Assembly (NCBI GenBank): GCA_030950585.1
Contig: JAUZRG010000033.1
Span: 1 to 64,000, forward strand
Reading direction: 5' to 3'
Source: Mariprofundaceae bacterium
GTDB taxonomy: Bacteria; Pseudomonadota; Zetaproteobacteria; Mariprofundales; Mariprofundaceae
DNA length: 64,000 nucleotides
The notes below the pieces were generated by a model. The model was not told the origin of the DNA, ran no database searches, and worked only from the letters and a program-made list of their open reading frames with translations. Below are positions 1-47,243 of the stretch, in pieces. Both the position numbers and the translations under genes were made by a program. Each line of letters begins with the position of its first letter. The stretch's first letter is position 1.

Positions 1-435
1 GGAAAAATCCGCGAGGTCAATATAGCAAAAGGCAACTTTAGATTTGCCCCTGTGATGTATCTGGATGCCGCTTTAAAAAACATCGAGGTCATGCCACAAA
101 CCAGCTTCAATGACATCATCGAAAAATATGTAGAAATGAATATTGCCCACCCTTTTAGAGAAGGCAATGGCAGAAGTACACGCATATGGCTTGATCTCAT
201 CCTAAAAAAAGAACTTAAACAGGTGATCGATTGGCAGTGCGTGGATAAAAACGACTACTTAATGGCAATGGAACGCAGCCCCATCAAAGACATTGAAATT
301 AAATTTCTCTTACAACAAGCTTTAAGCGATAAAATTGATGACGCGGAAATCTACATGAAAGGCATTGATGCCAGTTATTACTATGAGGGCTACACCCTCT
401 ACAAAACTGAAGATATTACGGAGGATAAAGCATGA
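1..435 (+). CDS. fic: Fic family AMP-transferase, class III (5' end outside window)
   Basis: This is the C-terminal 144 residues of a Fic protein; the frame is open from base 1, so the start lies upstream. The catalytic motif HPFREGNGR is at 148-174 and carries the His needed for AMP transfer from ATP to a target hydroxyl. The first visible residues ([16 protein letters not shown]) match the flap region of the family. Near the C-terminus is SYYYEG, which fits the (S/T)xxxE(G/N) inhibitory helix of class III Fic proteins such as Neisseria meningitidis NmFic, where the Glu blocks productive ATP binding and is released by oligomer change and self-modification. So the enzyme is probably intact and self-inhibited. 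Its stop overlaps the hsdR start (ATGA), so the two are co-transcribed. NmFic-type enzymes are reported to modify DNA gyrase; the target here is unknown. Confidence 0.9.
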
Positions 436-3400
436 CATTCACCAACGAAGCCGCCTTTGAAGCCGCCTTAATCGATGAGTTAAAAAACAAAGGTTGGGAA
501 GATGAAGTATTAAAAAACCCGACCGAAGCGGATTTACTGAAAAATTGGGCGGCTATTTTATTTCAGAATAATCGTAAGATTGACTGTCTCAATGATGTGC
601 CGCTCAGCGATAGCGAAATGCAGCAAATTATCGAGCAAATTCGTGAGTTGAAAACACCGCTTAAATTGAATGGTTTTATCAATGGTAAATCCGTGGCTAT
701 TACCCGCGATAACCCTGCTGACCCATTGCACTTGGGCAAAGCCATCAGCCTGAAAATTTACGACCGCCAAGAAATCGCCGCAGGGCAAAGCCGCTACCAA
801 ATTGTCCAACAACCACGGTTTGCTAAAAAGTCCAAACTACTTAACGACCGACGTGGCGATATGATGCTGCTAATTAATGGTATGCCCGTCATTCACATCG
901 AGCTGAAAAAGAGCGGTGTCCCAGTAAGTCATGCCTATAACCAAATCGAAAAATATTCCGCCGAGGGGGTATTCACGGGTTTGTTTGCCTTGGTGCAGGT
1001 GTTTGTCGCTATGAAACCAGCCGAGACAGTTTACTTTGCGAACCCCGGAATGGATGGCAAGTTTAATAAAGACTTTTATTTCCATTGGGCTGATTTCTAT
1101 AACGAACCCATTAACGATTGGAAGGCGGTTGTCGCGAGTTTGTTATCCATTCCCATGGCGCACCAATTGATTGGTTTTTACACTGTGGCTGATGGCTCTG
1201 ATGGCGTGTTAAAAGTGATGCGTAGTTATCAATACTATGCCGCTAACGCTATCTCGGACAAAGTATCCAAAACCAACTGGGGAGATAAAGATCGTTTAGG
1301 CGGTTATGTGTGGCATACCACGGGTTCGGGCAAAACCATGACCAGCTTTAAATCGGCGCAGCTTATTGCGCACTCAAAAGATGCCGATAAAGTGGTCTTT
1401 TTAATGGATCGCATCGAATTGGGCGTGCAATCCTTGCTAGCCTATCAAGGCTTTGCTGGTGATGGTGAAACGGTACAGGCCACCGAGAATACCGGCGTTT
1501 TAATCACCAAGCTCAAAAGTACCAATGAACCTGCCGATATCTTGATTGTTAGCTCGATTCAAAAAATGAGTAATATCAGTGAAGAGGTCAATGATGAAGG
1601 CGTGAGCTTTAAAAGCCATGATATTGCGCTCATCAACGATAAGCGTTTGGTGTTTATTATTGATGAAGCACACCGCTCTACCTTTGGCGATATGCTCATC
1701 ACCATTAAACAAACCTTTCCTGCTGCGCTATTTTTTGGATTTACCGGTACGCCGATTCAGGATGAAAACAAAAAGAAAGATAATACCACCTCAACCGTGT
1801 TTGGTAACGAACTGCACCGCTACAGCATTGCCGATGGCATCCGCGATAAAAATGTATTGGGCTTCGATCCGTATAAGGTAATGACCTACAAAGATAAAGA
1901 CCTGAGACGCGAAGTCGCATTGCTAAAAGCCAAAGCCAATACTGAAAGCGAAGCTTTAGCAGATCCTGAGAAAAAAAAGATATTTAATCACACCATGCGT
2001 CATGTCGATATGGCCGGGCATACAAGCCCCAATGGCAAATATGTCAAAGGTATTGAAGATGACTTGCCCAAGGCACAGTACACCCGTGATGAGCATCAAC
2101 AAAAGGTGGTGGAAGACATTGCTGAAAACTGGAGAAACTTGAGCTACGAGAGTAAGTTTCACGCCATCTTTGCCACCAGCAGCATACCTGAAGCGATTGA
2201 ATATTATCGTCGTCTAAAACAAGCAGCACCGACATTAAAAATAACCGCCTTATTTGATCCCAATATGAACGAAGGCAGTGATTATGCAGATACTGCATTT
2301 AAGCAAGCTGGTTTAGTCGAAATTATTGAAGACTATAATGCGCAATATGCTCAGAGCTTTACGCTTGCCAATCATGCTAAATTTAAAGATGATCTTAGAG
2401 TGCGCCTTGCCCATAAGGAACCCTATTTACGCATTGAAAAAACACCTGAACAACAACTTGACCTGTTAATTGTGGTCGATCAAATGCTCACGGGGTTTGA
2501 CTCTAAATGGTTGAATACCCTGTATCTGGATAAGGTGCTCAAGTTTGAAAACATCATACAGGCCTTTTCGCGCACCAATCGCCTTTACCTTAAAGATGAA
2601 AAACCCTTTGGCACGATTCGTTATTATCGTTACCCGCACAGTATGGAGCGCAATGTTAAGGATGCGGTTAAGCTCTATTCCGGTGATAAACCCGTCTGCC
2701 TTTTTGTGGATAAACTGCCTATGAATTTGAAAAAAATGAATGCTGTTTATGATGAGATGGTAGAGCTGTTTAATCATGACGGGATCAATGACTTTGCAAA
2801 ACTGCCAGCTGATCCTTCAGTACGCGGTCAATTTGCAAAATTGTTTACAGGCTTTAATGACTATTTAGAAGCGGCAAAAATCCAAGGTTTTGTTTGGACT
2901 AAATTGACCTACCTTTTTGGCAAAGCTAAGCAAAAAGACGACGTGACGCTAAACCTTGATGAAAACACCTATTTGATATTGGTGTTACGTTATAAAGAAT
3001 TATCCAGTGGCGGTGATGGAGGCGGTGGTATCGAAGAGGTGCCATTTGAAATATCAGGCTATTTAACGGAAATAGACACAGGTAAAATCGACTCGGATTA
3101 CATGAACTCCCGTTTTGAAAAATACCTTAAAACGATTCAAAAAAATGATGCAAGTAGCAAAGATATTCAAAAAATCGTCGATGAATTGCACAAGTCTTTT
3201 GCAACCCTCACCCAAGAAGAGCAAAAGTTTGCGAATATTTTTCTTCATGATGTGCAACGTGGTGATGTTAAACCAGAAGAAGGCAAAACCTTTAGAGACT
3301 ACATCACAGAATATTTAGCTACTGCTAAACAGTCGCAAATTAATGAGATTGTTAAGGTGCTTGGAAGCTCAGAAGACGCAAATATCGCCGAATTTAAACG

Positions 3401-3611
3401 CCAGTTAAGCCGTATGATGAATGCCGAAATAACCGAAGCCAATATCAATGCATTTGCCCGCTTTGATGATTTAAAAAAATGTGTTAATCAAGCCAAAGCC
3501 AAGGTTTATTTTGAAGAATTGGAAGGTGCTAGTATTTCTGTATTCAAGGTGAATGTGAAAATCGACAAGTTGCTTCAAGATTTTATTATGAGCGGAGGCT
3601 TTGATTTGTAG
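432..3611 (+). CDS. hsdR: Type I restriction enzyme R (HsdR) subunit
   Basis: A 1059-residue restriction and translocation subunit. The N-terminal nuclease of the PD-(D/E)xK type is seen at D143 and E157-x-K159 (the IELKK stretch). A superfamily 2 translocase follows: Walker A TGSGKT at 297-302, DEAH at 411-414 and GFTGTP at 436-441, then a helicase C domain with SRTNR-type residues. The C-terminal third is helical and would contact the HsdM/HsdS methylase core. In the holoenzyme HsdR cuts DNA far from the recognition site after ATP-driven translocation. The gene starts inside the fic stop codon (ATGA overlap). hsdM and hsdS are not in the window and are expected upstream. All motifs needed for activity are present. 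Confidence 0.96.
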
Positions 3612-3684: not shown

Positions 3685-3858
3685 TTCATCGCCATCGCTT
3701 TCATGATGCAAGATTTTGATGCCTATCTATTGAATACGCATTGATTTCACAGTGTGGTGATAAGCGGGTACTGGCTTGAGGAACTACCTTTTTTAAGCGT
3801 TATGGCTATGCTGCGAGCTTCTTTCGTAGATTATATATGCATATTGGGGAGCTCCACC

Positions 3859-6800
3859 TTGTCAGAGAAGAATCGATTGCCTGAAATTGCCATTGTTGGG
3901 ATGGGCTGTCTTTTTCCTGAGTCGCCCTCACCAGAAGCCTTGTGGCAACATGTGTTGCAGGCCAAAAGCACGGTAGAAGATGTGCCTGCTGATCGTTGGT
4001 ATTTATCGGCAGACAAAGCTTGTGCGGATACTGTGCAAGAAGATCGTGTGTATAGTCAGAAGGGTTGTTTTATTCACCCTGAAAGCTTGCATGTGGATAA
4101 CGATTTATTTGATATTGAACCTGATTTATTAGCCAAGTTAGACCCCTTGTTTCAGGTCTTATTTCATGCGGCGGGCGCTGCGCTAAAAGATGCAGGTGAT
4201 TTTGCAACATGGAATCATGACCGCACAGGTGTGATTTTGGGTAACTTGGTCTTACCCACAGAAACGGCATCGGCGCTTTCCCGAGAATGTTTATTAAAAG
4301 GTGTGGTTCCTCATACCAGCACGGATTCTTTAAATTTATATGCTGCGGGTATGCCCTCAGGTTTATTGGCGCAAGCATTGCATCTAGGTGGTACGAGTTT
4401 CACCTTGGATGCGGCCTGTGCATCATCGCTTTACGCTTTGAAAATGGCGATGGATGAACTTCAATCGGGTCGGGCTGATGTCATGTTGACGGGTGGTGTG
4501 TCTCGCCCTGATGCGCAATACACGCAAATGGGCTTTAGTCAGTTGCGTGCCTTGTCCAAACGCGGAAAAAGCGCGCCTTTTGATGCGCTGGGTGATGGCT
4601 TGCTGGTGGGTGAAGGTTCAGGTGTGTTTGTTTTAAAACGCTTGGATGATGCCTTGAAAGCCAACAACCCTATCTATGGTGTGATTCGTGGTGTGGGTTT
4701 ATCCAATGATTTGTCGGGTAAGTTGTTGGCACCCAGTTCTGAAGGTCAGTTGCGAGCCATGCGTGCCGCTTATGCACAGGCGGCTTGGTCGCCCAGTGAA
4801 GTTGAGCTGATTGAGTGCCATGCCACAGGTACGCCTTTGGGTGATGCGGTTGAATTCGCAAGTTTAAAAACATTATGGGCTGACTCGCATGCCTCTTCTT
4901 CAGCATGTGTATTGGGATCTGTTAAATCGAATATTGGTCATACGCTGACCGCTGCGGGATCGGCGGCAATGGTGAAAGTTCTCAAAGCCATGCAGCAAAA
5001 AATACTGCCGCCGACTGTGAATTTTAAACAAGCCTCACCTGATTTGGGTATGGAAGATTCACCTTTTGATGTGTTGACGCAGTCTAAAGCATGGGACACA
5101 GAGCAGCCAACACGCAAAGCAGCCATTAGTGCCTTTGGTTTTGGCGGCATCAATGCCCATGTCTTGATTGAAGAGTATGTGCCAAGTGCATGGCAGCGTA
5201 ATGTGCTGGAGCCGCAAAAAAATACTGTGCCTATTTCAATTGTGGGGATAGCGGCACAAGTTGGCCAATCCAAGCGTTTGGACGCACTTAGTCGTTGTGT
5301 TTTCAGCCAACAGCAACCACCACTGGCACCAAGTAGGGCTTGGCATACTGAGGATCAGCAAGAAGGTTATTTTATTTCTGAGGTGAAGCTAGCACAAGCC
5401 ACCTTTAGAATTCCGCCCAAAGAAATGGAAGAGATGTTGCCGCAACAATTATTGATGTTGCAGTTGGCACATGAGGCATGGAAAGATGCAGGTTTAGAGA
5501 AAGGTGGTGAACGCACTGGGGTTTATGTTGGCCTTGGTTTGGATATGAATAGCACTAACTTTCATTTGCGTTGGGCGATGGCGCAACACGCCGATGGTCT
5601 ACTTTCCTCAGAGGCCTTGCAGCATGTGAATCATTTACTCACCCCAGCCTTGAATGCCAATCGCACGATGGGTGCGTTGGGGAGTGTGGTGGCGAGTCGT
5701 ATTGCTAGAGAACTGGGTTGTGGTGGGCCTTCGTTCACCTTATCGAGCGAAGGTGCATCAGGTTTGCATGCATTGGCAACCGCGCTGCATGCTTTAGAAG
5801 CAGGAGAAATTGATACAGCCATTGTGGGTGCTGTGGATATGCAAGCGGATGTGCGTGTCTTAAAGCATCGTCAAAACGATGAGCTGGCCGCAGAAGGTGG
5901 GGTGGTGTTTGTGTTGCGCCGTGCAAATGTTGCGGCTTATGGACAGCTCAGCTCTGTCTTGGTGCAACAAAAGTTAAATGCCGTTGTGTTGCCTGCGCAT
6001 GTGGAAGTGATGCCGAGTTTTCATGATTGCTGGGGGCATGTTGGGGCCGCAGATGGCTTATTTCAGTTATATGGAAGCCTGCTTTGCATGCATCAACATC
6101 GTTTGCCTGCCAGCGCAGTGCGTGAACAAGCACAGTATTGGTTGCATGATCGCGCATGGGGCAGCCGTCAGGCGCAAGTCATGCATCAAAGTGTGGAAGG
6201 TAGCCAAGCTTTGCTGCTTATCACAGAATCAGCCATGCGCAAACAGGTCAATGCACCTCTGGGTGAAGAACAGTTATTTGTTTTCGCTGCACCAAATCCT
6301 GATGCATTATTACAACAATTAAGACAATTTGAACCACGCTGCCAAGCCGAGACCGAGATGTTGGTCTTGGCTTCATCCCTTTTTGGGCAAATTCAGGTGG
6401 GTGAAACGCGGGCAGCCTTGGTGGCGCGTAGCTTGAGTGAATTACTGGCGCAGTTAAGTTTGTTGTGTGCGCACCTTGAGCAGCGTCCTCAACATGGGGT
6501 TGGGGGTCAAGCAGATGATTTGCTGCATATTTGTGCGCGTGATCGCGTCTTCTATCAACCCTGTGATGCGCAACAAGGCAAGCTTGCGTTTGTGTTTCCC
6601 GGTTCAGGCAATCATTTTCATGGCATGGGTCGAGACGTTTTCTTGCGCTGGCCACATTTATTGGACGGACAGGAAAAACAAACCAAAACCTTAGCAACAC
6701 AGTTTCAAGCTGATTATTTTTGGCATGGTGTACATAGCCAAGAAAATCACACCGCCTTTATTTTGGCTCACGTCGCTTTGGGTATCGCTTTAAGTGATGT

Positions 6801-9800
6801 GTTAACGCAGACAGACTTAGCTCCACAGGCAGCGATACCGCATAGCCTTGGCGAAACAGTGTCTTTCTTTTCGCTTGGTGTGTGGCATGAACGTGATGAG
6901 ATGTTGCGTCGGATGCTACAAACGAAGCTGTTCACGCATGAGCTGCACAGCGAAGGTCAGGCAGCAAGACGTTTTTGGCAGCTAGAGCCAGAAGAAAAGG
7001 TGGCGTGGGTCATTGGTGTGGTGGATGTCAGTGCCGCTGTGGTGCGAGCTGCTTTAGTGGAGCGGTGTTATTTATTGATTGTGAATACGCCCAGCCAATG
7101 TGTGATTGGTGGTCAACGTGGCCAAGTCGAAAAGTTGGTGTCTCAACTCGGTGTGACAGTGCTGTGGTTGGATGGTGTGAGTATTGCTCATACACCTGTG
7201 GTGGCTGAAGTGGCGGATGATTACCGTGCGTTGCATGCTTTTTCTTCCACTCAACGTCCTGAAGGTGTGGCGTTTTATAGTGATGTAACGGCAAAACCCT
7301 TGTGGATCAATGCCGAAAAAGCGGCGAAATCACGCTTGGATCACGCGCTTTATACCTTAAATTACCCCGCTACCATTGAGCAAGCTTATGCTGATGGTGT
7401 GCGTACTTTTATCGAAGTGGGGCCGGGTCGTTCGTGTACGCATATGATTGAAACGATTTTGGCTGAACGCCCGTATATGGCCCGAGCTATTTGCCATGCA
7501 GGTGAAGATAGTTGTTCCACCTTATTGCGCACTTTTGCCTCTTTGTTTGTTGTGGGTTTAAACATAAAGCTGGATTGGCTTTACAGTCAAGCGCAAGAAA
7601 GAGCAAAGCAGTTTTTATGCATTCCTATCAAAAGTGGGGTGTTGGATAAGATTGTGTTGGAAACGATATTGCAACGAGAAAAAGTCGTTGTCGCAGAGAA
7701 GGTTGAAAAGTCTCAGCTTAAGCAGGAAGAAACCATGAATGAAAATGAACATCATGTTGAGCATGAAGATGTTAAAAGCACAACAGACGCATTAACCACA
7801 CAGGATATGAGCGGTGTGCCAGCATTAATTGCGGGTCACTTAGCTTCGTTGCAACGCATTGAAGTGGCGAGTGCCTTAGCTCATCAATCGTTTTTAAGTT
7901 GCAGTCAAAGCATCACGGAAAATATTTTGAGCCATGCCCAAGTGCAAATGCAAATGGTTCAGAATGCAGCTATATTGCCAGAGGATGTTGCAGCAGAAAC
8001 ATCAAACGCGGTCTTAAATCGTGAGCAGTGTATGGAGTTTGCAGTGGGGTCCATTGCAGCGGTGTTTGGTGATACTTATCGCGAAATTGATCAATACCCC
8101 GTGCGTGTTCGTTTGCCTGATGAGCCTTTGATGTTGGTGGATGAGGTGGTGTTACTGGAGGCTGAAGCCAATAGCATGAGTCATGGTCGCATTGTGACCC
8201 ATCATCATGTGGGCGCGCGGCCTTGGTATTTAGATCAAGGTCATATTCCTGTGTGTATTGCGGTTGAATCAGGGCAAGCTGATTTGATGTTGGCGGCTTA
8301 TCTTGGCATTGATTTCTTGGCAAAAGGCAAGGCGACCTATCGTTTGTTGGATGCTGCCGTGGTGTTTCATGCTGATTTGCCCACCCAAGGCCAAGTCATT
8401 GAATATGATATTCATGTTGATCGGTTTTTTGAGCATGAAGGCACATGGTTCATGAACTTTCATTTTGAAGGCAGTGTGGATGGTCAGCCTTTGATTTCCA
8501 TGCAGGATGGTTGCGCTGGCTTCTTCAGCCAAGCCGCTTTGGATGCAGGTGAAGGCATCAAGTTAAACCAGTGGGAGAAAAAACAAATAGTCTCATCGTT
8601 ACCTCAGGGCTGGCAAACATGGGTGTCCATGCAACAAGAGTCGTATGATGAAGCTCAGTTAAATGGCTTGCGTGCTGGTGATTTGGTGCAGTGTTTTGGT
8701 GCAGATTTTAGCAATCGGGTGCGTGATCCGCTTGGCTTGCCCTCAGGTCGTATGAATTTAGTGCATCGTGTGCGCTGCATTGAACCAGAAGGCGGTCGGT
8801 TTGGTTTAGGGCGTATTGTGGCAGAAGCCGATATTGCCGCTGATGACTGGTTTCTAACGTGTCATTTTGTGGATGATAAGGTGATGCCTGGTACCTTGAT
8901 GTATGAATGCTGTAATCACACCTTGCGTATCTTTTTGATGCGCATGGGTTGGATTAGTGAACGTGATAGCAGTTGGTGGGGACCCATCAAAGGGGTGCAA
9001 ACACGCTTGAAATGTCGTGGCCAAGTGTTGGACACCACAAAAGTAGTGAGCTATGAAATTGTGGTCAAAGAAATGGGCTATCACCCTGAGCCTTATGCCA
9101 TTGTGGAAGCCAATATGTATGCCGATAGCAAGTTTATTGTGCGCTTTGATACCATGAGCATTCAGCTTAATGGCAGCAATGAAGACATTTTAAAAGCCAT
9201 TTGGCAAAAGAAAGTCAGCGTGGTGAAGCCTGCTATTTATGATAAAAGTCGCATTGTGGCCTTTTGTGAAGGTAAGCCATCCGAAGCCTTTGGTGATCGT
9301 TATCAAATTTTTGATCATGAACGCAAAATTGCCCGCTTACCGCGTGACCCTTATGCCTTTTTAGATCGGATCACAGCCGTTAGCGGTGAACCTTGGTGCA
9401 TGGAAGCGGGGGCAAGTGCGCAAGCCCAATATGATGTGCCTGTTGATGCATGGTATTTTGCACAAAATAGACAAGCGTCAATGTCATTTGCGGTATTATT
9501 AGAAATTGCATTGCAACCGTGTGGTTGGTTGGCTGCTTATGTAGGCTCAGCTTTGACGAGTGATGTGGATTTGCGTTTTCGCAATCTTGGTGGAAAGGCA
9601 ACACAGTATTTAGCGGTGACAGCCAATAGTGGTACGTTAACCATTGATGTGACTTTAACGCGGGTATCAAGTTCAGCTGGTATGATTATTCAGTCGTATA
9701 CGATGGCGGTGCGCTCTGCCAAGGGTTTGGTTTATGAAGGAACCACAGACTTTGGCTTCTTTTCCAAAGAAGCTTTGGCACAACAAGTGGGTGTGGCAGG

Positions 9801-10290
9801 TGCAGCTTTGCATGATGTAGCCAATATGCCATTGCAAGCTTACCCTATGGAAGCGCCTTATCCTGATCGTCAAATGCGCATGCAAGATCATATTAGTTTG
9901 TTTCAACCTGAAGGTGGGCCTGCTGGTTTGGGTTTGATTCGTGGCTATAAACAAATTGATGCCAATGAGTGGTTTTTTAAAGCGCATTTTTATGAAGATC
10001 CTGTGAATCCTGGCTCTTTGGGTTTGGAAGCGATGATGCAACTTTTGAAAGTCATGGCTGCTCAGCGTTGGAATGGTGGAAAAGACATGCAATTTCAATC
10101 TGTTGCATTGCATGAAAAGCATGAGTGGATCTACCGTGGCCAAGTCGTACCGCACAACAAAGAAGTGATCGTTGAGGCTTGGTTAACAGAAGTGGATGAT
10201 GATCAACAAATCCTATGGGCAGATGGTTTATTGCAAGTTGATGGCAAAGTCATTTATCAAATGAAGCGTTTTAGCTTGCAGGCAAGTTAA
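3859..10290 (+). CDS. PfaC/Pfa3-type polyunsaturated fatty acid synthase subunit (KS-CLF-AT-DH-DH)
   Basis: A 2143-residue iterative megasynthase. I chose the TTG at 3859 because GGGGAG sits 7 bases upstream (3846-3851) and the KS domain starts directly after it; the frame is open back to GTG 3754. Domains in order: ketosynthase with active Cys in DAACASS (C187) and both His motifs (CHATGT, NIGHT); a chain-length-factor KS with the Cys replaced (SEGASG, near 5750); an acyltransferase (FVFPGSGNHFHGMG near 6590, HSLGE near 6841); an acidic linker; then two FabA-like double-hotdog dehydratases, each with a catalytic half (HFVDDKVMPG near 8865, HFYEDPVNPG near 9985). I see no acyl carrier protein, ketoreductase or enoyl reductase, so partner subunits must be encoded elsewhere. 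KS-CLF-AT-DH-DH is the order of myxobacterial Pfa3; marine PfaC lacks the AT. The exact product is unknown. Confidence 0.9.
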   Translation: MSEKNRLPEIAIVGMGCLFPESPSPEALWQHVLQAKSTVEDVPADRWYLSADKACADTVQEDRVYSQKGCFIHPESLHVDNDLFDIEPDLLAKLDPLFQVLFHAAGAALKDAGDFATWNHDRTGVILGNLVLPTETASALSRECLLKGVVPHTSTDSLNLYAAGMPSGLLAQALHLGGTSFTLDAACASSLYALKMAMDELQSGRADVMLTGGVSRPDAQYTQMGFSQLRALSKRGKSAPFDALGDGLLVGEGSGVFVLKRLDDALKANNPIYGVIRGVGLSNDLSGKLLAPSSEGQLRAMRAAYAQAAWSPSEVELIECHATGTPLGDAVEFASLKTLWADSHASSSACVLGSVKSNIGHTLTAAGSAAMVKVLKAMQQKILPPTVNFKQASPDLGMEDSPFDVLTQSKAWDTEQPTRKAAISAFGFGGINAHVLIEEYVPSAWQRNVLEPQKNTVPISIVGIAAQVGQSKRLDALSRCVFSQQQPPLAPSRAWHTEDQQEGYFISEVKLAQATFRIPPKEMEEMLPQQLLMLQLAHEAWKDAGLEKGGERTGVYVGLGLDMNSTNFHLRWAMAQHADGLLSSEALQHVNHLLTPALNANRTMGALGSVVASRIARELGCGGPSFTLSSEGASGLHALATALHALEAGEIDTAIVGAVDMQADVRVLKHRQNDELAAEGGVVFVLRRANVAAYGQLSSVLVQQKLNAVVLPAHVEVMPSFHDCWGHVGAADGLFQLYGSLLCMHQHRLPASAVREQAQYWLHDRAWGSRQAQVMHQSVEGSQALLLITESAMRKQVNAPLGEEQLFVFAAPNPDALLQQLRQFEPRCQAETEMLVLASSLFGQIQVGETRAALVARSLSELLAQLSLLCAHLEQRPQHGVGGQADDLLHICARDRVFYQPCDAQQGKLAFVFPGSGNHFHGMGRDVFLRWPHLLDGQEKQTKTLATQFQADYFWHGVHSQENHTAFILAHVALGIALSDVLTQTDLAPQAAIPHSLGETVSFFSLGVWHERDEMLRRMLQTKLFTHELHSEGQAARRFWQLEPEEKVAWVIGVVDVSAAVVRAALVERCYLLIVNTPSQCVIGGQRGQVEKLVSQLGVTVLWLDGVSIAHTPVVAEVADDYRALHAFSSTQRPEGVAFYSDVTAKPLWINAEKAAKSRLDHALYTLNYPATIEQAYADGVRTFIEVGPGRSCTHMIETILAERPYMARAICHAGEDSCSTLLRTFASLFVVGLNIKLDWLYSQAQERAKQFLCIPIKSGVLDKIVLETILQREKVVVAEKVEKSQLKQEETMNENEHHVEHEDVKSTTDALTTQDMSGVPALIAGHLASLQRIEVASALAHQSFLSCSQSITENILSHAQVQMQMVQNAAILPEDVAAETSNAVLNREQCMEFAVGSIAAVFGDTYREIDQYPVRVRLPDEPLMLVDEVVLLEAEANSMSHGRIVTHHHVGARPWYLDQGHIPVCIAVESGQADLMLAAYLGIDFLAKGKATYRLLDAAVVFHADLPTQGQVIEYDIHVDRFFEHEGTWFMNFHFEGSVDGQPLISMQDGCAGFFSQAALDAGEGIKLNQWEKKQIVSSLPQGWQTWVSMQQESYDEAQLNGLRAGDLVQCFGADFSNRVRDPLGLPSGRMNLVHRVRCIEPEGGRFGLGRIVAEADIAADDWFLTCHFVDDKVMPGTLMYECCNHTLRIFLMRMGWISERDSSWWGPIKGVQTRLKCRGQVLDTTKVVSYEIVVKEMGYHPEPYAIVEANMYADSKFIVRFDTMSIQLNGSNEDILKAIWQKKVSVVKPAIYDKSRIVAFCEGKPSEAFGDRYQIFDHERKIARLPRDPYAFLDRITAVSGEPWCMEAGASAQAQYDVPVDAWYFAQNRQASMSFAVLLEIALQPCGWLAAYVGSALTSDVDLRFRNLGGKATQYLAVTANSGTLTIDVTLTRVSSSAGMIIQSYTMAVRSAKGLVYEGTTDFGFFSKEALAQQVGVAGAALHDVANMPLQAYPMEAPYPDRQMRMQDHISLFQPEGGPAGLGLIRGYKQIDANEWFFKAHFYEDPVNPGSLGLEAMMQLLKVMAAQRWNGGKDMQFQSVALHEKHEWIYRGQVVPHNKEVIVEAWLTEVDDDQQILWADGLLQVDGKVIYQMKRFSLQAS

Positions 10291-11333
10291 TGCGTTATCA
10301 AAAGGTTTGGATGGATGCGATTGGCTATCAATTGGGTGAGCTTGAGGTGAGCAGCGCAGTGCTTGAAAAACGACTTGCCCCAAGTTACAAAAAATTACAT
10401 TTCCCCCAAGGCCAATTAGAGGCTTTAACGGGTGTGCAGCATCGGCGTTGGTGGCCTAAAGGTCATCGCTTGAGTGATGGTGCGGTTGCAGCGGCACGCC
10501 ATGCCTTGGCAAAAACCGATGTTCCTATTTCCGCACTTGGGGCTGTGGTGTATACCGCTGTGGCTCGTGAACAATTCGAGCCTGCAACAGCTTGTCGGGT
10601 CGCGGGTTTATTGGGTGTGGAACCGAGCACTTTGGTGTTTGACATCAGTAATGCCTGTTTGGGCATGCTCAATGGTATGCTAGATGTGGCCAATCGTATT
10701 GAATTGGGTCAAATCAAAGCGGGTTTGGTGGTGGCTTGTGAGTCATCACGCGATATTATTAATGAAGCCATCGCCGCGATATTGGCCGATTCTAGCATGA
10801 AAAACATGGTCATGTGGTTGGCAACCTTAACGGGTGGTTCAGGTGCGGTTGCCGTGGTACTCACAGATGGTTCTTTTTCTCACGAAGATAAACCGCGCTT
10901 GCATGGCGCGAGTTGGCAGGCTGCACCTCAGTTTCATGATTTATGCAGCTGGGGCTTGGAAGAAGATCAACCGCGCCGTTTTCGTGAAGTTATGCGCACA
11001 GACTCTATCCCACTCATGAAAAACGGTGTTGCTCTCGGTCAGAAGACATGGGCTGTATTCTTAAAAGAGCAAGGCTGGTCGGCAGAAAATGTTGATAAAG
11101 TGATTTGTCATCAAGTGGGTTCATCCAATCAAAAAGCGGTGTTGGGTGCTTTGCAAATTTCATTAGAAAAAGATTTTGTTACCTTTCCATCGTTGGGAAA
11201 TATGGGGCCAGTCTCTGTGCCTTTAACAGCAGCCATTGCTGCTGAAAAAGATTTTTTAAAGACTGGAGATCATGTGGCTTGGTTGGGCATTGGTAGTGGC
11301 CTTAATTGCATGATGCTGGCTTTTGAGTGGTAG
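10290..11333 (+). CDS. oleA: OleA-like thiolase-fold acyl-CoA/ACP condensing enzyme
   Basis: A 347-residue KASIII/thiolase-fold protein. Cys123 (DISNACLGM), His275 (ICHQVG) and Asn305 (LGNMGPVS) form the catalytic triad. Glu97, 26 residues before the Cys, has the same spacing as the Glu117/Cys143 pair described for Xanthomonas OleA. The RRWWPKGH and SGLNCMM stretches resemble Shewanella OleA as I remember it. OleA performs head-to-head Claisen condensation of two fatty acyl thioesters to a beta-keto acid, the first step to long-chain olefins or ketones. The start overlaps the stop of the megasynthase (TAATG), so the two are translationally coupled. The usual partners oleB, oleC and oleD are not in the window. 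An ordinary FabH-like role is the alternative, but the whole-length match favours OleA. Confidence 0.82.
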   Translation: MRYQKVWMDAIGYQLGELEVSSAVLEKRLAPSYKKLHFPQGQLEALTGVQHRRWWPKGHRLSDGAVAAARHALAKTDVPISALGAVVYTAVAREQFEPATACRVAGLLGVEPSTLVFDISNACLGMLNGMLDVANRIELGQIKAGLVVACESSRDIINEAIAAILADSSMKNMVMWLATLTGGSGAVAVVLTDGSFSHEDKPRLHGASWQAAPQFHDLCSWGLEEDQPRRFREVMRTDSIPLMKNGVALGQKTWAVFLKEQGWSAENVDKVICHQVGSSNQKAVLGALQISLEKDFVTFPSLGNMGPVSVPLTAAIAAEKDFLKTGDHVAWLGIGSGLNCMMLAFEW

Positions 11334-11334
11334 T

Positions 11335-11760
11335 TTAAAGTGTTTTCATGTATTCCATGATATCTAAGCGTTTTTGTGTTTCTTGCATCTCAGGCAGGGA
11401 AGGCATGATCAGAATGGGGTTTTCGTCGAGTAACTTTTTAGCTTCAGCATTAACTTTTGCAAAAGCAACAGGTGATTTTAACCAGTCGCTTAGCCACACA
11501 TCCGAGCGACGCGTACTAATGCCTTGTAAATTGAGCGCGCCCACAAGGCTCTTTTTACCATCGGTTTTATGACAGTAACGACAGCTATTTTGATATAGTT
11601 TCTTACCATTGTCTTTATCGGCAATGATCACTTCGCCTGTTTGGGTGTTGGTGCTCATGAGCGTGCCATAACTTTTATACTCGACCTTTATCTCTTCCGC
11701 ATATGCGACAGGATGCATTAAAAGTATTGTGTTAAATAAAATAAAATAAAGGTATTTCAT
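11335..11760 (-). CDS. Small monohaem cytochrome c (copy 1)
   Basis: A 141-residue periplasmic cytochrome c. The start at 11760 is preceded by GGGAG and opens a signal peptide (MKYLYFILFNTILLMHPVAYA); an earlier in-frame ATG at 11790 lacks these features. One haem site is visible, CRYCH, with a likely axial Met in IMPSLPEM, as in class I cytochromes of about 100 mature residues. It is 44 bases downstream of a close paralogue with the same layout (LxGxxxRRSDxWLxxWxKSP), so the pair arose by duplication and is probably one operon. It converges on oleA with one base between stops. An electron-carrier role is inferred; the partner is unknown. Confidence 0.88.
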   Translation of the reverse strand: MKYLYFILFNTILLMHPVAYAEEIKVEYKSYGTLMSTNTQTGEVIIADKDNGKKLYQNSCRYCHKTDGKKSLVGALNLQGISTRRSDVWLSDWLKSPVAFAKVNAEAKKLLDENPILIMPSLPEMQETQKRLDIMEYMKTL

Positions 11761-11804
11761 ATCATTCTCCCTTATCAGATGATTGAACATGAAAGTGATG
11801 CTTT

Positions 11805-12176
11805 TTACAAGGTCTTGATATAAGTGATGACATCAAGACGTTTATGATCGTCTTGCATTTGAGGTAATGTGGGCATGATGATGATGACATCATCGCCAAT
11901 GGTCATTCTTTTAGCTTCCACATTTACTTTGGCAAAATCACTGGGTGATTTAACCCAGTTGTCCAGCCATGTATCGGAACGACGTTGACCAACACCGTTG
12001 AGACTGGTTGCTCCCACAGTGCTCTTTTCTTCGCCTAACTTATGGCAGTAGGCACATGTATTTTCAAAAATAACTTTTCCTCGCATGGCATCACCAACAA
12101 AAGCACCGTCATCGGCATGAAGGTTTGTTGTGGGTAAAATGCACAGACTGAGAAACAGTAAAACGTGTTTATTCAT
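11805..12176 (-). CDS. Small monohaem cytochrome c (copy 2)
   Basis: A 123-residue class I cytochrome c, first gene of the minus-strand pair. It has a strong AAGGAGG ribosome binding site, a signal peptide (MNKHVLLFLSLCILPTTNLHA), one CAYCH haem site and a likely axial Met in IMPTLPQM. It differs from its neighbour mainly in the N-terminal segment before the haem site. The conserved RRSDTWLDNWVKSP block between haem and Met is shared by both copies. Such small cytochromes shuttle electrons in the periplasm. Confidence 0.88.
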   Translation of the reverse strand: MNKHVLLFLSLCILPTTNLHADDGAFVGDAMRGKVIFENTCAYCHKLGEEKSTVGATSLNGVGQRRSDTWLDNWVKSPSDFAKVNVEAKRMTIGDDVIIIMPTLPQMQDDHKRLDVITYIKTL

Positions 12177-12275: not shown

Positions 12276-12563
12276 TTACTGAATGCAGTACACTCTGGCT
12301 GTTCTTGGTGTGTAAATACCAAGTGTTAGTCCGCCTAGAAAGCCATCTAAGAAAGTTAACTCTACTTCAACTTTGGCCACTTTATCTGCACCACCGCAGA
12401 TGGTTGCTGCATTGAATTGTTTTTCTTGGCCTAAACCACTGATAAAGAAGCTTTGTGAGTCTTCTTTGCTGAGTGTTCCTGAGCCACTATTGTGTAGTGT
12501 GAATGATTGCGTCGCGCAGCCTGTCATGGCAATGAGAGCAAGAGCTAGAATAAGATTTTTCAT
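12276..12563 (-). CDS. bor: Bor/Iss family outer-membrane lipoprotein
   Basis: A 95-residue lipoprotein. Lipobox MTGC gives a lipid-modified Cys at residue 15. The mature part follows the Bor pattern closely: FFISGLGQ, AATICGGA, a central TFLDGFLG and the ending LGIYTPRTARVYC. Bor is a lambda lysogenic-conversion lipoprotein linked to serum resistance, with many chromosomal homologues. AAGGAG lies upstream of the start. No other phage gene is visible nearby, so this is either an old phage remnant or a domesticated family member. Its function here is unknown. Confidence 0.88.
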   Translation of the reverse strand: MKNLILALALIAMTGCATQSFTLHNSGSGTLSKEDSQSFFISGLGQEKQFNAATICGGADKVAKVEVELTFLDGFLGGLTLGIYTPRTARVYCIQ

Positions 12564-45935: not shown

Positions 45936-47243
45936 TTAGGTTTGTGAAACCTCGGCTTTAGCTAATTCCATAAACACTTCACCGCGCTCTGCATAGTTAA
46001 GAAATTGATCCATGCTTGCAGAAGCGGGTGAAAGTAGGACTGGGAGCTTGTTGTTTGCTGCTTTGGCTGCTGTTACTGCTGCCGCTAAGTGTCCGACGAC
46101 TTGATAGCTCACACCTGCCTCTTGCAGCATAGCCACATAGGCTTCGGGTTCTGTGCCAATGACCCAAGCATGATCAACATGCTGGGCGACGGTTTTGGTC
46201 ATGGGTGTTAAGTCGATGCCTTTACGCAGGCCACCGCAGATCCAAGTGACTTTTTGGCATGATTGAAGGGCTGCGATGGCAGCGTCGGGGTTGGTGGCTT
46301 TGGAATCATTGAACCAATCACGTCCGTGGTAATGACCGACATATTGCATGCGGTGTGGCAAACCAGAAAAGTGATGCATCATGTGGATTATTTTTTCTTG
46401 ATCTTGGTCTAAGTCGGTCGCAATTTGTGCCACAATGGCCAAGTTAAGGTACTGGTGGCTGCCTTGAATGGCTATGTCAGCACATGGCATGCTGTATTGG
46501 CCTTGTTGCCAAAACACGGTGTTTCCTTGATCGCTTTGGCGAATACCAACATCGGTATGAGGGCTTGTGCCACCCACACGGCGGACACAGACACCGCGCT
46601 TTTGTAGTCTGTTGGCTTGTTCATCCCATTCATGATCAGCGGGCAACATCGCCCAGTCGCCTTGTTGTTGTTTTGCAAACACGCGCAATTTGGCTTGTTT
46701 GTATTCTTCTGCATCCGCATGCATATCAACATGATCTGGCTGAAGGTTGAGAAGCACGGCGTATTTGGAGTGAATCGGGGCACTGCGTTGGAGCTGAAAA
46801 CTAGATAATTCCAAGACCGCTTGGCTGTGTTGATCTGCCAAGGCATCGAGCATGGGTGTGCCTATATTGCCGAGGGCTGGGATGTTCATCAGTTGATGTA
46901 AAAGTGTGGTCACGGTTGTTTTGCCGTTTGTTCCCGTGATGGCAATGGTGTCACCCTTAAAATGTTGGGCAAATAGTTCAAGGTCGCTCAGCATCTTTTT
47001 GCCTTGTGATCTTAATTGCTGCAAGACGGGATGTTGCCATGAAATACCAGGGCTGAGGGCGAGGCTATCATAAGCTTCTAATTGCTGAGCCTGCAAAGGA
47101 CCACAGTACAACCGACACGTTAAGCTTGGGTCTAAGTCGATGTTGTTTTCATCAAAAGCATCGCATTCAATGCCTTGAGATAAAAGAAATGAGACAATGG
47201 AACAACCTGTTTTTCCCATTCCAATGACGGCAGTTTTTTGCAT
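45936..47243 (-). CDS. murD: UDP-N-acetylmuramoylalanine--D-glutamate ligase MurD
   Basis: A 435-residue Mur ligase adding D-Glu to UDP-MurNAc-L-Ala. The N-terminal Rossmann part starts VIGMGKTGCSIVSFLL; the ATP P-loop is AITGTNGKTTVTTLL; LNLQPDHVDMH, DWFNDSKATNPDAAIAAL and LLSPASASMDQF are diagnostic for MurD. In most proteobacteria murD is beside ftsW and murG; here it stands alone, 22 kb from lpxC and on the other strand. The gene looks complete, so it is likely the working copy unless another exists. Confidence 0.96.
   Translation of the reverse strand: MQKTAVIGMGKTGCSIVSFLLSQGIECDAFDENNIDLDPSLTCRLYCGPLQAQQLEAYDSLALSPGISWQHPVLQQLRSQGKKMLSDLELFAQHFKGDTIAITGTNGKTTVTTLLHQLMNIPALGNIGTPMLDALADQHSQAVLELSSFQLQRSAPIHSKYAVLLNLQPDHVDMHADAEEYKQAKLRVFAKQQQGDWAMLPADHEWDEQANRLQKRGVCVRRVGGTSPHTDVGIRQSDQGNTVFWQQGQYSMPCADIAIQGSHQYLNLAIVAQIATDLDQDQEKIIHMMHHFSGLPHRMQYVGHYHGRDWFNDSKATNPDAAIAALQSCQKVTWICGGLRKGIDLTPMTKTVAQHVDHAWVIGTEPEAYVAMLQEAGVSYQVVGHLAAAVTAAKAANNKLPVLLSPASASMDQFLNYAERGEVFMELAKAEVSQT

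Follow-up and report, generated by a model that had tools for sequence, protein, structure and literature searches.

A pfaBC-oleA gene pair as the probable core of a scattered Type I-like polyunsaturated hydrocarbon pathway in a Mariprofundaceae bacterium

The closest described systems are the "Type I" loci of Geobacter and other Desulfuromonadales, in which a pfaBC fusion is usually followed by oleA, alone or together with oleBCD (PMC3098273, PMC4882568). In Geobacter bemidjiensis, pfaDABC-oleABCD-pfaE are found in tandem and C31:9 is produced (PMC4882568). The pfaBC fusion types were described by Shulse and Allen in 2011, and their linkage with ole genes was found to be frequent, but not required (PMC3098273). 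Shewanella and Photobacterium, which combine pfaABCDE with oleABCD and also yield C31:9 (PMC6463001), keep pfaB and pfaC as separate genes, and oleA heads oleABCD. When pfa genes and oleA were combined in E. coli, a 31:8 ketone was obtained, and OleA was argued to draw the acyl groups from the ACPs of PfaA (PMC6463001). PfaB is the terminal acyltransferase that sets the final PUFA product, and in the Moritella protein a Tyr-to-His change (Y607H) reduced the transfer activity (PMC12895367).

The window, which is the whole 64-kb stretch analysed here (contig C140:1-64000), belongs to a draft genome of 2.5 Mb in 212 contigs that is 99% complete. It contains a pfaBC fusion with oleA directly downstream, and these genes very probably represent the part of a Type I-like pfa-ole pathway that has stayed together while the cluster was scattered over the genome; the product would be a long polyunsaturated hydrocarbon. 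This reading is based on the identities of the genes, the kept catalytic residues, the presence of all the parts in one genome and an adjacency that is conserved in relatives. The features of the locus are as follows:

3859-10290, plus strand: pfaBC fusion gene, 2143 aa from the TTG at 3859; PUFA synthase subunit KS-CLF-AT-DH-DH (Pfam/NCBIfam domains)
3883-5208, plus strand: KS domain (Pfam ketoacyl-synt); active-site Cys in DAACASS (4408), His motifs at 4816 and 4930 (motifs aligned)
5209-6453, plus strand: CLF (degenerate KS; Pfam/NCBIfam); SSEGASG at 5743, with Glu at the cysteine position
6589-7455, plus strand: PfaB-type AT domain (Pfam Acyl_transf_1 and TIGR02816 pfaB_fam, both below their cut-offs)
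6838-6855, plus strand: AT nucleophile elbow, PHSLGE instead of GYSLGE (alignment with related pfaBC AT domains)
8074-9123, plus strand: first DH region (pseudo-DH plus DH); CHFVDDKVMPG at 8860
9154-10287, plus strand: second DH region (FabA domain); KAHFYEDPVNPG at 9979
10288-10292, plus strand: TAATG stop/start overlap (sequence), suggesting translational coupling
10290-11333, plus strand: oleA, predicted head-to-head condensing thiolase, 347 aa (NF006720, PDB matches, fold, alignment)

The mechanical ORF call for pfaBC (3754-10290, plus strand) starts at a GTG, and in the protein read from this codon the Pfam/NCBIfam searches placed the KS at residues 44-424, a degenerate second KS, the AT at residues 946-1234 and two FabA-type DH stretches; the KS-CLF-AT-DH2 layout of the Type I pfaBC fusion is therefore present in the window. 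The TTG at 3859, with GGGGAG in front of it, is the better candidate for the start, as conserved KS residues begin only downstream of it. The second KS is taken as a CLF, since a Glu replaces its cysteine, as in related pfaBC proteins, while the aligned active-site motifs of the KS and DH domains are intact. Both the KS and DH1 are 49-59% identical to their counterparts in the Type I-like pfaBC proteins of relatives such as Geobacter; in trees of these domains, which were built without the other Types, the nearest sequences are Geobacter-type, with the window on a long branch and without strong support.

The product of the second gene matches the NCBIfam model NF006720 (PRK09258) over its full length with 467.8 bits (cut-off 285). 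We take this to be the OleA model, which is supported here by the PDB matches, the 12 best of which form one Xanthomonas OleA-like group. Among solved folds, the predicted structure (mean pLDDT 92.6) comes closest to Xanthomonas OleA (TM 0.92; FabH, 0.83), and the first 28 Foldseek matches are all to OleA of Xanthomonas campestris or to the homologue from X. oryzae. Residues E97, the OleA-specific Glu, C123, H274 and N304 are invariant across 31 aligned sequences. Although the fold and the catalytic residues are those of Xanthomonas OleA (PDB 3row and others), the sequence identity to this type is ~32-35%, and the window instead combines a linked PUFA synthase with a polyene-type OleA, which is 52-60% identical to the Shewanella/Colwellia/Geobacter polyene clade and which the tree joins to the enzymes of Shewanella, Psychromonas, Colwellia and Geobacter and separates from the Xanthomonas-type enzymes. 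A starter enzyme of the KASIII class, FabH-like or other, would share the thiolase fold, and there is indeed a weak similarity to the FabH model (75.9 bits), but the OleA model, the PDB structures, the ranking of the folds and the presence of E97 all favour OleA, and a separate FabH-like gene, the only KASIII match in the genome besides the single OleA, is located on another contig (C39). Such an identity is thus practically excluded and was rejected. On its sequence and modelled structure the 10290-11333 product is an OleA, predicted to perform head-to-head condensation. The original prediction, which had recognised an OleA-like enzyme and a PUFA synthase subunit and had proposed the comparison with FabH and other KASIII families, was right on both proteins.

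It had also described the KS-CLF-AT-DH-DH gene as overlapping the OleA-like gene by 1 bp, and this is borne out by the two ORFs (3859-10290 and 10290-11333). At the junction, ...GCAAGTTAATGCGTTAT..., the TAA stop and the ATG start have 1 nt in common, an arrangement that suggests that pfaBC and oleA are translationally coupled and co-transcribed; a 4-nt stop/start overlap is found at the same junction in seven related loci. The assumption that pfa genes and oleA are otherwise separate was mistaken, since their adjacency is published (PMC3098273, PMC4882568) and pfaBC lies directly before oleA in about 16 of the 80 named loci found with the OleA alignment. These belong to Geobacter, Geomonas, Geomobilimonas, other Desulfuromonadales-like MAGs, two planctomycetes and a KSB3 bacterium, and most of those that are complete show the order KR - pfaBC - oleA - oleB - oleC - oleD. 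The gammaproteobacteria among the loci carry oleA at the head of oleABCD.

The window shares with the Geobacter Type I loci the KS-CLF-AT-DH-DH fusion, the position of oleA and, within the genome, the same set of pfa and ole genes, which are in tandem in Geobacter but distributed over four contigs here, with oleBCD detached from oleA; the AT motif is GYSLGE in Geobacter and PHSLGE in the window. Shewanella and Photobacterium have in common with it a polyene-clade OleA and the same proposed chemistry, and differ in the gene arrangement described above, as pfaBC is fused and precedes oleA in the window. The locus of the KSB3 bacterium DOLJORAL78_50_49 (L065) also has pfaBC followed by oleA without adjoining oleBCD, but its junction is a 32-nt gap rather than a 1-nt overlap and a MATE-like transporter gene comes after oleA. 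In a sister genus of the host (g14) the pathway is scattered differently, with pfaD-pfaA-KR, pfaBC, oleAB and oleC each on different contigs. There, an ATP-grasp-like gene (L176:11465-12532; weak Pfam match), not oleA, is found ~10 nt after pfaBC. What is new in the window is modest: a further bacterial family, the spread of the cluster over four contigs, in which pfaBC-oleA is the one link that remains, and the PHSLGE site of the AT.

Searches of the 64-kb window by tblastn, using the genome's own proteins as queries, gave no real match to ACP, KR, PfaD or OleBCD. The earlier statement that ACP, KR, ER and oleBCD are missing therefore holds for the window, but it is incomplete, since the genome carries these genes on other contigs, and the search that had been suggested for PfaA/PfaD-like partners, a PPTase and oleBCD found them all. 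Directly after purB on contig C136, there are in a row PfaD (ER; 584.5 bits), PfaA, built of KS-MAT and two ACP stretches (1064.7 bits, above the cut-off), and a separate KR-DH protein. Contig C76 carries an overlapping oleB-oleC-oleD run that encodes an OleB-like alpha/beta hydrolase, an OleC (705 bits) and an OleD-like reductase; the last two missed the strictest equivalog cut-offs (711 bits against 850 for OleC, 437 against 580 for OleD). An Sfp-type PPTase of 215 aa is found between ispH and kdtA on C203. The catalytic or active-site motifs of MAT, OleB, OleC and OleD are intact in the alignments. A truncated pathway was thus rejected: pfaA with its ACPs, KR, pfaD, oleBCD and the PPTase, that is, the parts of the Type I pathway, are all in the genome, on three contigs other than that of the window. 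The genes do not form the single cluster of Type I but occupy four separate contigs of the draft. As the published linkage is frequent and not required, this scattering does not exclude a Type I pathway, and we refer to it as "Type I-like".

In the proposed pathway, PfaA, its ACPs armed by the Sfp-type PPTase, would build a polyunsaturated acyl chain on these ACPs together with the KR-DH protein, PfaD and the PfaBC of the window. OleA, probably encoded on one transcript with PfaBC, would then take two acyl groups off the ACPs, presumably by direct ACP-to-OleA transfer, and condense them head to head, and OleB, OleC and OleD would convert the beta-keto acid into the olefin. Because the partner genes (pfaD-pfaA-KR/DH, oleBCD and the PPTase) are in the same genome, the product is likely, by analogy with the described systems, a long polyunsaturated olefin such as hentriacontanonaene (C31:9). 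The original proposal of a dedicated route to a very long polyene ketone or hydrocarbon stands as regards the link to polyunsaturated hydrocarbons; the lack of oleBCD in the window is no pointer to a ketone, as oleBCD, like pfaA, pfaD and the PPTase, is on another contig. A polyunsaturated ketone as the end product, with OleBCD not acting with this OleA, would accord with the unlinked position of oleBCD and with the formation of ketone by decarboxylation when OleA is alone (PMC6463001); given the oleBCD run with kept catalytic motifs, and an OleC placed on the same gammaproteobacterial branch as OleA, we regard it as very unlikely.

The AT domain of the window has an altered active site. The Tyr that precedes the serine is present in all 13 related pfaBC AT domains, and the Gly before it in 11 of 13 comparable pfaBC proteins; a His is found only in the window. 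By analogy with the Tyr-to-His change that lowered transfer by the Moritella PfaB, the terminal acyltransferase, this AT may be weak or altered, a lead that comes from a single sequence of one draft genome, and the chain length or its release may differ from those of Geobacter. The site also bears on whether the synthase mainly makes PUFA for membrane lipids, OleA being a side branch as in EPA-producing Shewanella, which obtains both products from one synthase (PMC6463001). Every PUFA synthase subunit is present in the genome, which speaks for it, but the AT, which decides the final PUFA in PfaB, has the changed elbow, clusters of the Type I-like kind show linkage with ole genes, and Geobacter makes C31:9 (PMC4882568), so that we consider a mainly membrane-directed synthase improbable. 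An extension of the hydrocarbon pathway that we also regard as improbable is that the PfaB-type AT of this lineage has lost its terminal long-chain acyltransferase role (GYSLGE to PHSLGE); the co-translated OleA would then be the only off-loading step, and the synthase would be dedicated to hydrocarbons, possibly of another chain length.

Within the host's family, OleA and PfaD co-occur in the same four genomes and both are absent from the 33 others tested for the two; as the genomes are related, this may represent only one or two events. A scan of viral contigs for oleA gave no match. The window OleA is placed beside a gammaproteobacterial clade (97/89), on a long branch, and OleC falls on the same branch, so the two appear to have a common history although their genes are unlinked. 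Joint inheritance of oleA with g14 is not favoured, the AU test giving p 0.026 for a clade of the window OleA with that of g14; grouping with Geobacter was rejected (p 0.014), and grouping with KSB3 was not (p 0.09). Since the window OleA is not grouped with that of g14, the host genus and g14 probably gained or kept different oleA copies, a conclusion that is not firm given the long branch of the window. The simplest reading is that the pfaBC-oleA linkage is old and persisted in this genome when oleBCD and pfaDA became separated from it.

The surroundings of the gene pair are rearranged as well. Directly upstream of pfaBC is hsdR (432-3611; Type I restriction enzyme subunit R), preceded by a Fic-domain fragment. 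Two small c-type cytochrome genes (11335-12176, minus strand) converge with oleA, and a lambda Bor-like lipoprotein gene is at 12276-12563 (minus strand). In relatives, murD is followed by ftsW within the cell-wall (dcw) cluster, the two being adjacent in L195. In the window this cluster is broken before ftsW, which comes after pfaBC-oleA and the cytochrome genes (13682); murD is found on the minus strand (45936-47243), a position that an inversion of ~32 kb (13682-47243) would account for.

With this locus the pfa-ole hydrocarbon pathway reaches one more bacterial family, and the link that survived the break-up of the cluster is that between a synthase subunit and the condensing enzyme. This is consistent with a direct hand-over from the synthase to OleA, although it is no proof of it. 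The PHSLGE site provides a natural test of whether the synthase can do without a PfaB-type acyltransferase once OleA takes off the chain.
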